In this document: piece after piece, positions 36,407 through 49,023 of the stretch
Layout: each line of letters opens with the position of its first letter
Numbering within the stretch: the first letter of the stretch is position 1
Source of the DNA: Thiorhodovibrio winogradskyi
Lineage (GTDB): Bacteria; Pseudomonadota; Gammaproteobacteria; Chromatiales; Chromatiaceae
DNA: 64,000 nt
Reading direction: 5' to 3'
Assembly (NCBI RefSeq): GCF_036208045.1
Contig: NZ_CP121472.1
Coordinates: forward strand, 434,001 to 498,000
The notes under the pieces: model-generated
The model's database searches: none
Told to the model about the DNA's origin: nothing
Seen by the model: the letters and a program-made list of their open reading frames with translations, nothing else
Translations under genes and position numbers: made by a program

Positions 36407-37510
36407 TTAGTCCTCCGCAAGATAACGCGCGTTCATTCTCTCTACTACGCTGGCTGTGTGCGCTTCGCTTAGATGCGCGTAGCGTTTCACCATGGCGAGG
36501 GTCTTGTGCCCGAGTACCTCAGCGATTTCGGCGAGACTCGCGCCATTCATCGCAAGGTAGGAAGCGGTCGTATGACGTAGGTCGTGAAAATGAAAATCCT
36601 GAATTTCGGCGCGCTTTAGTGCCGCATCCCATGCCGCGCGAAAGTCCATGGGCTGCACAGGTTTTGGTGGGCGCGCCTGCCCTGGAAAAACTAGGTCGGT
36701 GTCCAGTCGCTTGATCTTGGCATGATCTTTGAGCAGGGCGAGTGCTTGGCCGGTCAGGGGGACCACGCGAATTTCGCCGTTCTTTGTTTCTCGTAGAGTG
36801 ATTCTGGCGTTTTTGAAATCCACATCCGGCCAGCGCAGACCGGTGAGTTCGCTTTTTCGCATTCCAGTCGATAGCGCCAATAAGACGGCCAAGTACAACC
36901 ATGGGTTGCGGGAACCCCGGCAAGCGCCCAACAATGATTCGCGCTCGTCGTCAGATAGGAAACGGACGCGCCCATCGGGTTCTGCGGGGCGCTCCACCTT
37001 TCGCATTGGGGAGTCGTCGATCCATCCCCATTCGCGGACTGCGACACCAAAGGCATGGGAAAGGGGTGCCATGTAACGGACGACGGTCGAGGGTGACATG
37101 GGCGTTCCGTCTCGCTTGACCGTGCGGGACAGCTTATCTCGAGCCTCGACGATCTTGGCGGGAGTCACGTCCGCGAGGATGTAGGCGCCCAACTCGTCAC
37201 GCCACCACTGAAGCTGAGACGTGATGATGGAGATGCTGCGCGAGCTGCGAGGGCGCTTCGATTTGCGAGGAGGGCGCGGCAAGACATCTCGGATGTAGCG
37301 ATCAATCAGATCCGCAAGCGTGTGTCGCCGAGACTTGATCGTTTTGAAATGGCGTCCTTCGCGAATCGCGGCTTCGTTTTGCTGAGCCCACTTTTTGGCG
37401 TCGGTCTTTCTGGTGAAAGTGGCGCTCTGTCTCGGATGCCCTTTGAGTCGGACTTCGACACGATAGGTTCTCGCGCCGGTGCCGTCTGTGCGTTCGGTGA
37501 TAGTGGCCAT
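36407..37510 (-). CDS. tyrosine recombinase / integrase
   Basis: A 367-residue phage-type integrase. It has an N-terminal AP2-like arm-binding part (GHPRQSATFTRKTDAKKWAQ) and a SAM-like core-binding domain. The catalytic residues are Arg in STGMRKSELTGL near residue 214, HDLRHT near 312, GHKTLAMVKRYAHLS with the nucleophile Tyr near 341, and a Lys in TKNGEIR. All are intact. It lies 0.45 kb from the tRNA-Leu attachment site and is oriented away from it. It should catalyse integration between the 77-bp repeats. Confidence 0.95.
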   Translation of the reverse strand: MATITERTDGTGARTYRVEVRLKGHPRQSATFTRKTDAKKWAQQNEAAIREGRHFKTIKSRRHTLADLIDRYIRDVLPRPPRKSKRPRSSRSISIITSQLQWWRDELGAYILADVTPAKIVEARDKLSRTVKRDGTPMSPSTVVRYMAPLSHAFGVAVREWGWIDDSPMRKVERPAEPDGRVRFLSDDERESLLGACRGSRNPWLYLAVLLALSTGMRKSELTGLRWPDVDFKNARITLRETKNGEIRVVPLTGQALALLKDHAKIKRLDTDLVFPGQARPPKPVQPMDFRAAWDAALKRAEIQDFHFHDLRHTTASYLAMNGASLAEIAEVLGHKTLAMVKRYAHLSEAHTASVVERMNARYLAED

Positions 37511-43047: not shown

Positions 43048-44331
43048 GTGTCCTTATCCCGGCAAGCGGCGGACCAGCGGCGTTTTCTTGCTGGCCCGCC
43101 GCCTGTCGCGCTCTATGTGCATTGGCCCTGGTGCCTGCGCAAATGTCCCTATTGCGACTTCAATTCCCATCCCAGGCCCGACCATTGGCGTCAGGCGAGC
43201 TATATCGATGCGCTCCTGGCGGACCTCGATACCGAGCTTGAGCTGCAGCCACTGGAGCAAGCCGTCGAGACCCTGTTCATCGGGGGCGGCACGCCCAGTC
43301 TGATCGAGCCAGCCGAGCTGCACCGGCTGATCGCTGGCATTCGTGGCCGCCTTGATTTGGCCGCGCATGCTGAATTGACACTCGAGGCCAATCCGGGCGC
43401 TGCCGATGCCGCTTGCTTCGCGCAAGCCTTGGATGCGGGCATTAATCGGTTATCGCTTGGTGTGCAGTCCCTGTCCGATGCCAAACTCAAGGCCATCGGT
43501 CGCGTGCATGATTCAGCTCAGGCGCGACAGGCCTTTGCTCAGGCGCGGCAAGTGGGTTGCCGCAACATCAATATTGATCTGATGTTTGGGCTGCCGGGAC
43601 AGAACCTCGGGCAAGCGCGCGCCGATCTTCAAGCCGCGCTGGCACTGGAGCCAGAGCATCTGTCCTACTATCAGCTCACCCTGGAGCCAGGAACGGCCTT
43701 TGAGCGCGTGCCGCCTTCCGTGCCCGAGGATGATCTGCTCGCCGACATGGCCGAGCAGGGGCAGCAGCTGCTCACCGACAGCGGCTATCGGCATTACGAG
43801 GTCTCTGCTTTCGCACGGCCCGGCAGAATGTGCCGCCACAACCTCAATTACTGGACCTTTGGGGACTATCTCGGCCTCGGCGCTGGTGCTCATGGCAAGC
43901 GTACCGACGCCAAACAGGGCAGGGTCGTGCGTCGCGTCAAATGGGCCGACCCGCTGCGCTATCTGGAGTCCGTCCGGCTCAAGCAGGCAGCGCCCGACGC
44001 CTTGGTGGCTGAGACCAACGAACTGAGCGATCAGGACGTGATCCTGGAATTTGCGCTCAACGCATTGCGCCTGCGACAGGGCGTTTCACTTTCGTTGTTT
44101 GAGGCCCGTGCTGGGCTATCACGAAACCGGCTCGCGGGCGCGCGTGCCCGTGCCGAGGAGATGGGGTTGCTTGAGCGCGGTGCCTCCCATCTGCGCGCGA
44201 GTGCTCGAGGCCGGCTTTTTTTAAATTCTCTCCTTGAGTACTTCATGACGGATCCGCCGGATGAATGGTTGGAAGTGGATCGGCTTGGCGGCGGAGACCG
44301 CCGCGACCGGGCTTCACATCGCCGACTTTGA
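43048..44331 (+). CDS. hemW: HemW-type radical SAM protein
   Basis: A 427-residue member of the coproporphyrinogen-oxidase-like radical SAM group. The cluster motif is YVHWPWCLRKCPYCDFNSH near residue 25-43, followed by FIGGGTPSL, EANPG, RLSLGVQSL and DLMFGLPGQ. The first cysteine spacing CxxxCxxC and the absence of HemN's N-terminal extension fit HemW, a heme chaperone, better than oxygen-independent HemN. It starts at a GTG with only 16 bases after the TRAP gene. The C-terminus runs about 25 residues past the family's LNSLLEYFM ending, overlapping the 5' region of the next ORF. Confidence 0.85.
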   Translation: MSLSRQAADQRRFLAGPPPVALYVHWPWCLRKCPYCDFNSHPRPDHWRQASYIDALLADLDTELELQPLEQAVETLFIGGGTPSLIEPAELHRLIAGIRGRLDLAAHAELTLEANPGAADAACFAQALDAGINRLSLGVQSLSDAKLKAIGRVHDSAQARQAFAQARQVGCRNINIDLMFGLPGQNLGQARADLQAALALEPEHLSYYQLTLEPGTAFERVPPSVPEDDLLADMAEQGQQLLTDSGYRHYEVSAFARPGRMCRHNLNYWTFGDYLGLGAGAHGKRTDAKQGRVVRRVKWADPLRYLESVRLKQAAPDALVAETNELSDQDVILEFALNALRLRQGVSLSLFEARAGLSRNRLAGARARAEEMGLLERGASHLRASARGRLFLNSLLEYFMTDPPDEWLEVDRLGGGDRRDRASHRRL

Positions 44332-44450
44332 CGCCGCGGGTCTTTGCACACTGCTTTGAAGCACTTTGCTACACCAGACTTGTGGTCGCTGTATCATCAG
44401 CTCCCAGCAAAAATAATGACTTGACCCGCAGGCATCATCGATCTCTCGAC

Positions 44451-47348
44451 ATGACGCGAAAAACCACCTTGCCACCGATGGCGGCGAATCAAGCGGCGGG
44501 AGAGCCCGGATCAGCGCGCGGCTCGGAACAGGCATCTCACCAGCCCCCGCCGCCTGAATCGACCACGGACGTGGTCAAAACGCCGCTTAAAGGTGCGAAG
44601 CACGCCAGGCACGCCAAGCGCTCCAGGGCGGGGACGACGCGCACCCGCCTGCCGCGACCCAAAGGCTCGCGCCCCGGCACACCAGGCGGCGTTGAGTACC
44701 ATGAGCTGATCCGCGGCGGCTCCGGCACGCCGGTGCGCGCCCTCTGCACCGATTTTAGCCAAGAGCAGATCGAAACCCAAGAAATCAAGGACATCAAGGC
44801 TTTTCTAGACGCGCACCGACCAAGCTGGTGCCAGGTTCGCTGGATACATGTTGAGGGGCTCGACGACCACAGTGTGATTCGTGGTTTGGCCGAGAAATAT
44901 CAACTGCACCCTCTCGCCATTGAGGACCTCCTCGAGCACGAGCATCGCGCAAAGCTTGAGGATTACCCTAACACCGGCGATTTACCGGGGCGACTGTTCG
45001 TGATGGCACAGGCCGTCACGCTCGTGCGCGGCCAACCCCTGACCGAGCCGGTCGCGTTTTTCCTCGGGCGCACCACCTTGCTGAGCTTCAAGAGCGGCTC
45101 CCATGGCGTGATCGACGAGATCCGCCACCGGATCCAGTCACCGCTCTCGCGGGTGCGCCAGCACGATGCCAGCTTTCTGTTTTATGTGTTGATCGATGCC
45201 ATCGTGGATCACAGCTTTCCCGTTCTCGACGCCTGCGCGCAGCGTCTTGAGGACGCGGAGGATCAAATCTTCAGCCACCCCGACACCATCAGTCTGCAAA
45301 CCCTGCACGCGATTAAGCGCGATCTGGTCATTATTCGACGCACCGCCTGGCCCATGCGAGAGCTGGTGATTCAGCTCCTGCGAGACCGCCATCAGTGCCT
45401 GTCCGAGATCACCCAGACCTATCTGCGCGACGTCTACGATCATTGCACCCAAATCATCGATTTGGTCGAGACCTACCGCGAGATCGCCAGCGCGGTCACC
45501 GAGACCTACACCTCGATCGTCTCCAACCGCACCAACGACGTCATGAAAGTCCTGACCATCATCGGGACAATCTTTCTCCCGCTCACCTTCCTCGCCGGGG
45601 TCGAGGGGATGAATCTGGAGATGCCGGAAGCCCACTGGCCGCCCGCCTATCCGTTGTTCTGGCTCCTGTGCATCCTGATCGCGGGCTTGATGCTCTGGCA
45701 CTTCAAACGCAAGGGCTGGCTGTGGCAACGGCAACCCGAAGCCGGTGCCGAGCCGGGTATTAACACGCAGATCACACTCGATTGTTATGCTCGAACGCAA
45801 CTGACAATGCAGCAAGCCGCGGAGCCCAGTGAATCACCGCCAGCCAACCGCGCAACCGGAGTCCCAATGAGCTCTCGGAACAAGACCTCAGCACGTCCCC
45901 GCAGTGTGCAAGCCTACATCGACGAAACGCCGTTCTGGCAGGATGGCACTTCAACTCCTGGAGTACCCTTGACCCGAATGCAGTGGCGCATCTGGATACT
46001 CGCCACGGCGGGCAAGTTCTTCGAGGGGCTGGTTGTCTTCATGACCGGCGTCGCACTGCCGTTGATCGTGATGGAATTTCAGCTCGACGCCGCGCACAAG
46101 GGCGTTGTCGGGGCCGCCGTCCTCGCCGGCATCCTAATCGGAGCCACGGCCCTTGGCGGTCTCGCCGACGTGTTTGGCCGCAAGCGGATGTTCATCGTTG
46201 AGATGATCCTGTTCGCGATCTTTCTGGCCGCGTTAACCTTCAGTCCCAGCTTCCCGTGGCTGGTCGTTTTTCTGTTTGGCATGGGGATGGCGCTCGGCTG
46301 CGACTACCCAACCGCGCATCTGATCATTTCCGAGAGCATTCCAAGCAAGGACCGCGGCAAGCTGGTTCTGAGTGCCTTTGGTTTTCAAGCAGTTGGCGCA
46401 CTGGTCGGCACCATCGTCGGGTATCTGATCCTCAACTTCACCCAAGATCTCAGCGCCTGGCGCTGGATGTATGCCACCGCCATCATCCCTACCATTGTCG
46501 TCATCATCGGGCGCTTTTTTATCACCGATAGTGGGCATTGGCTGCTGGCCCGCGGTCGGGTGCAAGAGGCGGAAACAGCCCTGCACCGGTTGCTGGAACG
46601 CGACCCCGCTTATCCCAAGACGGTGTGTCTCGAGGTCCCCGAAGCCGAGGACAAAGGCGACGGCAAGGCTCACGCCAAGGGCGGCTTTCTGGCACTGTTC
46701 AACCGCAAGAACCGTCGCGCCACCTTATTTGCCTCCATTCCGTGGTTTCTTCAGGATCTTGGCACCTACGGAATCGGCATCTTCACACCCACCATCCTGG
46801 CCGCCGCCCTCGGCCATCACACCAACCACGAGCACAACATTGCCGCCGTCATCCATAACGACATCCTGGCCGCCAAGGGCGCCGCACTGCTCGACCTGCT
46901 GTTGCTATTTGGGATCATCGCCGCCGTGCTTCTGGCGGACAAGGTCGGGCGCGTACGGCTTCAGGTGTTCGGCTTCATCGGTTGTGCGATTGGCTTGGCC
47001 CTGGCCGCCGGATCGATGAATTTCGCGGAACCCTTGCAACTCTGGGTGCTCGCGGCTGGCTTTGTGATCTTTAACTTCATGACCAACCTCGGGCCCAACG
47101 CCCAAACCTATCTGATTGCGGGCGAGGTCTTTCCGACCCATATCCGCGGGCAAGGTGCCGGCTTTGCCGCCTCCTTTGCCAAAATTGGCGCCGTACTGAC
47201 AGCCTTTTGCTTCCCGATTTTTCAAAAAGATCTCGGCACCCAAAATCTGCTGCTGATCCTGGTTGGCTCTTCACTGCTGGGGGCTTTGATCACCTGGCTG
47301 CTGCGCATCGAGACCAAGGGCCGGAACCTTGAGGACATCGGGTGCTGA
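44451..47348 (+). CDS. CorA-MFS fusion transporter ORF
   Basis: A single open frame of about 965 residues joins two transporters. Residues 80-430 are CorA-type: WCQVRWIHVEGLDDHSVI, LHPLAIEDLLEHEHRAKLE, the stalk helices, TIIGTIFLPLTFLAGVEGMN with the selectivity GMN near 385, and a second TM helix. Residues about 510-965 are a 12-TM MFS sugar-porter type: GGLADVFGRKRMF, DRGKLVLSAFGFQ, RGQGAGFAASFAKIGA. The linker of about 70 residues is polar, without a stop. An internal ATG at 45867 has GGAG upstream and could give a separate MFS protein. The N-terminal 60 residues are basic and disordered. Start chosen at ATG 44451; longer starts overlap hemW. Confidence 0.75.
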   Translation: MTRKTTLPPMAANQAAGEPGSARGSEQASHQPPPPESTTDVVKTPLKGAKHARHAKRSRAGTTRTRLPRPKGSRPGTPGGVEYHELIRGGSGTPVRALCTDFSQEQIETQEIKDIKAFLDAHRPSWCQVRWIHVEGLDDHSVIRGLAEKYQLHPLAIEDLLEHEHRAKLEDYPNTGDLPGRLFVMAQAVTLVRGQPLTEPVAFFLGRTTLLSFKSGSHGVIDEIRHRIQSPLSRVRQHDASFLFYVLIDAIVDHSFPVLDACAQRLEDAEDQIFSHPDTISLQTLHAIKRDLVIIRRTAWPMRELVIQLLRDRHQCLSEITQTYLRDVYDHCTQIIDLVETYREIASAVTETYTSIVSNRTNDVMKVLTIIGTIFLPLTFLAGVEGMNLEMPEAHWPPAYPLFWLLCILIAGLMLWHFKRKGWLWQRQPEAGAEPGINTQITLDCYARTQLTMQQAAEPSESPPANRATGVPMSSRNKTSARPRSVQAYIDETPFWQDGTSTPGVPLTRMQWRIWILATAGKFFEGLVVFMTGVALPLIVMEFQLDAAHKGVVGAAVLAGILIGATALGGLADVFGRKRMFIVEMILFAIFLAALTFSPSFPWLVVFLFGMGMALGCDYPTAHLIISESIPSKDRGKLVLSAFGFQAVGALVGTIVGYLILNFTQDLSAWRWMYATAIIPTIVVIIGRFFITDSGHWLLARGRVQEAETALHRLLERDPAYPKTVCLEVPEAEDKGDGKAHAKGGFLALFNRKNRRATLFASIPWFLQDLGTYGIGIFTPTILAAALGHHTNHEHNIAAVIHNDILAAKGAALLDLLLLFGIIAAVLLADKVGRVRLQVFGFIGCAIGLALAAGSMNFAEPLQLWVLAAGFVIFNFMTNLGPNAQTYLIAGEVFPTHIRGQGAGFAASFAKIGAVLTAFCFPIFQKDLGTQNLLLILVGSSLLGALITWLLRIETKGRNLEDIGC

Positions 47349-48619: not shown

Positions 48620-48830
48620 AACCTGCCGTGGCGCTGGGGATGTGGTTTGCCGGACTGTTGGCTGCCATCGCCGTCAAATTAACGCGAAGACCATCATTGA
48701 GCGATCCCGGATGGCCAATAACTCAGTGAGCTTGCAAACACCAAAACGCAACCTAATCAATGCAGCCATTTCCACCTCCTTGGATAATCCTGAGTGGATT
48801 CTTCGGAAACAGCGAAGCGGAGGTTCCAAC

Positions 48831-48986
48831 ATGCCCCAGCAGCAACAAGACAACATGGGTGCCGGCGGCACCTGCATCTGCCCGAAGTGTGACTATCTGA
48901 GTTTACCCTTCGGTTGGAGGGCGCGGAGACCGGTTCTATCGAGGCTTGAGCCGGCTAGTATGGCTTTTTTGAACTCCGAAACGTGA
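48831..48986 (+). pseudogene. truncated zinc-ribbon small protein
   Basis: With a good GGAGG at 48820-48824, the frame reads MPQQQQDNMGAGGTCICPKC. This resembles small proteins with a GTC-x-CPKCG-type ribbon that normally continue with a second cysteine pair. Here the sequence degenerates after CPKCDY and no second pair appears. Confidence 0.4.
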
Positions 48987-49023
48987 GTTAGAATGATCAG
49001 AGGCTTTTTCCGAGGAATCCAAT

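Follow-up and report, generated by a model that had tools for sequence, protein, structure and literature searches.

The best solved relatives of the protein described here are of two kinds, T. maritima CorA (2iub, 8tmb) for its first part and carriers of the phosphate-transporter (7sp5) and GlcP (4lds) kind for its second, MFS part. CorA channels (PF01544, TIGR00383) have a GMN motif, two C-terminal helices and a ...KxWL end directly followed by the stop codon, and the loop at the entrance of the T. maritima CorA pore is supported by the aromatic residues of the YGMNF signature (PMC3629940). In the window, i.e. the whole 64,000-nucleotide stretch of the Thiorhodovibrio winogradskyi genome that was analysed, a whole CorA domain with all three features and, by profile, a whole 12-helix domain of the Sugar_tr/SP-like MFS carriers (PF00083) lie in one protein. 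It differs from known CorA proteins by the missing stop after WL, by EGMN in place of YGMN and by 541 extra residues, and from known MFS carriers in that CorA precedes in frame and that its MFS part scores below every NCBIfam MFS subfamily cut-off. CorA-like frames of ~510 codons are found in sister species (L153:2310-3833 in G002 and L154:1516-3048 in G001). The G002 copy likewise has a membrane domain joined to the C terminus of a CorA, with a similar frame in G001, but this CorA is distant and reads LGMN, and the additional domain, Ion_trans_2, is unrelated to MFS; the genome of the window has no counterpart of these frames over the Pfam cut-off. A literature search over titles and abstract openings returned no report of a CorA-MFS fusion.

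The interval 44451-47348 on the forward strand is a single open frame of 965 codons from the ATG at 44451, and the first possible start, at 44265, would give an ORF of 1027 aa (44265-47348). Its layout is as follows:

44451..45722, + strand: corA part, residues 1-424, CorA domain up to the canonical ...KGWL end.
45723..45725, + strand: TGG at the conserved CorA stop position, from homologue C-termini.
45723..45866, + strand: polar linker of 48 codons, the presumed former spacer, from GC by codon position.
45857..45869, + strand: GGAG and ATG, retained ancestral MFS start (MSS...) by homology, with possible internal initiation.
45867..47348, + strand: MFS carrier part, 493 aa, a separate gene in relatives.

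A Pfam profile search placed CorA (PF01544) at residues 128-420 (E 3e-62, 210.8 bits for a cut-off of 27) and Sugar_tr (PF00083) at residues 518-963 (E 1e-50, 173.1 bits for a cut-off of 22.3, profile positions 5-448 of 452), with MFS_1 (PF07690) also matching in the second half. The NCBIfam model TIGR00383 (corA) scored 247.7 bits, above its cut-off of 200.75, and was followed to its last position (320 of 320) at residue 424, which is also where the last residue of T. maritima CorA aligns. The initial ~64 residues of the corA part are variable and of low complexity. For the MFS part, all listed NCBIfam MFS models remained far below their cut-offs, so that none of them assigns it to a known substrate subfamily. 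The open frame with its CorA GMN motif, polar linker and full MFS domain, as well as the internal ATG at 45867, in frame and with GGAG ahead of it, are thus present as the sequence-only reading had described them. The AlphaFold2 models of the CorA part with the linker (mean pLDDT 58.9, 11 alignment rows) and of the MFS part (mean pLDDT 51.3, 6 alignment rows) are too poor to judge the linker or to warrant a fold search, but the former displays the long stalk helix expected of CorA. The fused gene is single copy in the genome, and a first contig scan with the whole fused protein as query gave no match.

We then compared the junction, which reads ...GGC-TGG-CTG-TGG-CAA..., with the C-termini of other CorA proteins. 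The TGG at 45723-45725 stands where the CorA stop is expected: in the fetched loci, which cover several subfamilies, the stop codon comes directly after W-[L/F/I] in all 31 of the 31 other distinct C-termini, and two C-termini listed with 6 residues past the search pattern have WL as their end too, the extension being an artefact of the pattern. The closest CorA (72% identical, in G206; hereafter the sister gene) has TAG at the very position of the TGG. Some CorA matches have long open frames beside them (for example in G070 and G150), and the CorA of these loci ends at the usual stop. Since each of the 31 C-termini has its stop at the position of this TGG, the junction is best explained by loss of the corA stop, for which a single A-to-G change in TAG or TGA would have been enough. 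A conserved stop had been expected near 45750; it does exist in homologues, but its position is 45723-45725. Note that the junction is seen in one genome only, so that the direction of change rests on homologues and not on a second strain.

The linker itself looks like a spacer. Over the 144 bases from the TGG to the MFS start, GC by codon position is 0.69/0.58/0.54, compared to 0.63/0.44/0.78 in the CorA part and 0.61/0.44/0.74 in the MFS part, i.e. it does not carry the coding signature of the flanking genes. The chance for such a stretch to be free of stops is 0.18-0.27, so nothing special would be needed after the stop was lost. A promoter scan of the linker found no sigma-70-like site. 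At the end of the linker, the ATG at 45867 corresponds to the MSS... start of three Chromatiaceae relatives, in which an in-frame stop lies upstream, and we take it to be the retained ancestral MFS start. Its GGAG gives a duplex energy of -6.1 kcal/mol (random sites have a median of -3.0 and the best 10% reach -6.7); this Shine-Dalgarno-like site being only moderate, the assignment of the start rests on homology. We also considered the site as evidence of internal initiation at 45867 and set it aside, since other internal ATGs score equal or better. A sense codon at the conserved stop, a spacer-like linker and a kept downstream start, the hallmarks of a stop-loss fusion, are therefore all present.

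The same fusion was sought in relatives and, the window's own aside, was found in none of 210 Chromatiaceae genomes, 369 gammaproteobacterial genomes and 80 named MFS loci. This MFS is present in 6 of the 210 Chromatiaceae genomes, including that of the window, the only one in which it is fused; the MFS part is 67-76% identical to the stand-alone proteins of the other five, and 58-75% identical to the 80 loci, which come from many groups. None of these loci is fused or has a frame above 619 codons, and in the class-wide sample of 369 genomes no other MFS frame exceeds 553 codons. An established fused transporter family would be expected to turn up in at least two species, which is not what we observed. 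When the fusion was aligned jointly with both homologue sets, the result looked misaligned and was set aside. Relatives with two separate genes and a stop at this place argue against a long-standing fusion and support the proposal, already made from the sequence, that a stop codon was lost between two proteins.

Overall, these data indicate that the junction is a real, single-species gene fusion and probably a recent one. We conclude with good confidence that corA and the MFS gene were joined by loss of the corA stop codon, most likely in a recent and near-neutral event and not as an adapted dual transporter. Another reading, which we consider unlikely but not negligible, is that the CorA part is decaying, with the lost stop as a further harmless lesion and the MFS carrier as the sole working product. 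The GMN motif is kept (residues 386-388, in the loop between two membrane helices), but the filter (45603-45614) reads EGMN, with Glu385 where ten aligned homologues have Tyr; the residue before GMN, whose aromatic nature in the YGMNF signature is lost here, is almost always Tyr or Phe in the CorA frames examined and charged in none of the others. Including this Y385E change, the window's CorA differs at 15 columns that are invariant in ten other homologues, against 2 for the sister gene, and in relative-rate tests it has accumulated ~2x the changes of the sister gene (p 0.0005-0.15 depending on which of nine outgroups is used), with little or no rate excess in the MFS part. This CorA subfamily is also absent in both sister species. 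These observations fit a CorA part under relaxed or altered constraint, although one other CorA homologue has a branch as long. Against decay, the frame is fully open with GMN intact, the score exceeds the family cut-off, its codon positions are composed as in an active gene and the genome has no second CorA above the Pfam cut-off; a weak CorA-like match at 5228841 was discarded, as it lies in an unrelated frame without similarity to the CorA region of the sister species.

The absence of a second CorA over the cut-off also suggests that the CorA part may be needed, as would be expected from a selected fused transporter in which each subunit of a CorA pentamer carries an MFS on a cytoplasmic tether and Mg2+ uptake is coupled to MFS transport. 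We regard this as improbable. The frame is open through both complete domains, and the sister-species CorA with Ion_trans_2 indicates that C-terminal membrane additions to CorA are tolerated. Moreover, four Acidithiobacillus species, a Thiomonas MAG and a Rhodobacteraceae MAG (loci L116, L133, L101, L103, L106 and L109) carry a CorA gene of another subfamily next to this MFS and on its strand, i.e. in 6 of the 80 MFS loci and in three lineages, all unfused with stops between. By a rough estimate, less than one neighbour locus would be expected within 3.5 kb at one to three CorA genes per genome. The Rhodobacteraceae MAG pair (L116) has the order and strand of the fusion, with a CorA ending in ...RRWL, a spacer of ~0.1 kb and then the MFS; it differs by a TGA after WL and by its CorA subfamily. 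CorA and this MFS may thus be functionally linked, and the recurring neighbourhood, of which we found no published description, is the one finding that still leaves room for an adaptive fusion. The fusion is nevertheless absent from any second species, its linker is spacer-like, the ancestral MFS start is retained and the CorA filter bears signs of altered constraint. The further proposal that five MFS carriers tethered to a stable CorA pentamer improve an existing partnership, the EGMN filter being tuned to a different ion, appears to us highly improbable. A functional fused pentamer, pointed out beforehand as remarkable, would be possible but is unsupported, as the comparison with relatives gave it no backing. 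Finally, one base decides the junction and one genome shows it, so that a base-call or assembly error, with a true stop at 45723 and two ordinary genes, could be imagined; the genome would be that of T. winogradskyi DSM 6702, assembled into one contig from PacBio data at 1589x (PMC10609205). At such depth a substitution error is unlikely, and we regard this explanation as extremely improbable.

With stop loss as the preferred explanation, adjacent corA and MFS genes located after hemW would have been joined once the corA stop became TGG. Ribosomes from the corA start would then read through 48 former-spacer codons to give a 965-residue CorA-linker-MFS chain, and initiation at 45867 could still supply free MFS besides. 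Given the open frame, this one strain probably produces the fused polypeptide, perhaps alongside the free carrier. The C terminus of CorA and the N terminus of MFS carriers are both cytoplasmic, and the fused chain is hence topologically possible; its CorA part may either form a pentamer to which the carriers are tethered or be in the course of losing its function. The mechanism is ordinary, one lost stop codon joining two adjacent genes, and the locus is a clean case from nature of two membrane proteins with compatible topology becoming fused. Were the fused chain stable and active, the resulting pentamer of about 70 membrane helices (5 x 14) would surprise specialists; the fusion also draws attention to how CorA and one MFS subfamily recur as neighbours.

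Collinearity of the window with both Thiorhodovibrio sister species extends over the uvrD-like, TRAP-binding-protein-like and hemW genes and stops at about 44253, and the comparison places the synteny breakpoint just after hemW:

44249..44265, no strand assigned: synteny breakpoint, just after hemW, from both sister species.

Downstream of the fusion, the window sequence matches scattered places in the sister genomes, one of which carries this MFS at another place. Since collinearity ends after hemW and both sisters are without this CorA, the juxtaposition of corA and MFS after hemW is particular to T. winogradskyi among the genomes examined. The C-terminal tail of hemW (44249-44331) is 23 residues longer than in either sister and starts where collinearity ends; the gene seems to have acquired a new end at the breakpoint. 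Intergenic stretches of ~270 and ~90 bases within 48624-48991 match several scattered sites of both sister genomes at 78-95% identity; they form a dispersed repeat near the fusion, which may have been involved in the rearrangement. Upstream of the collinear block, an ORF at 36407-37510 (- strand) reads, by eye, like a phage-type tyrosine integrase.
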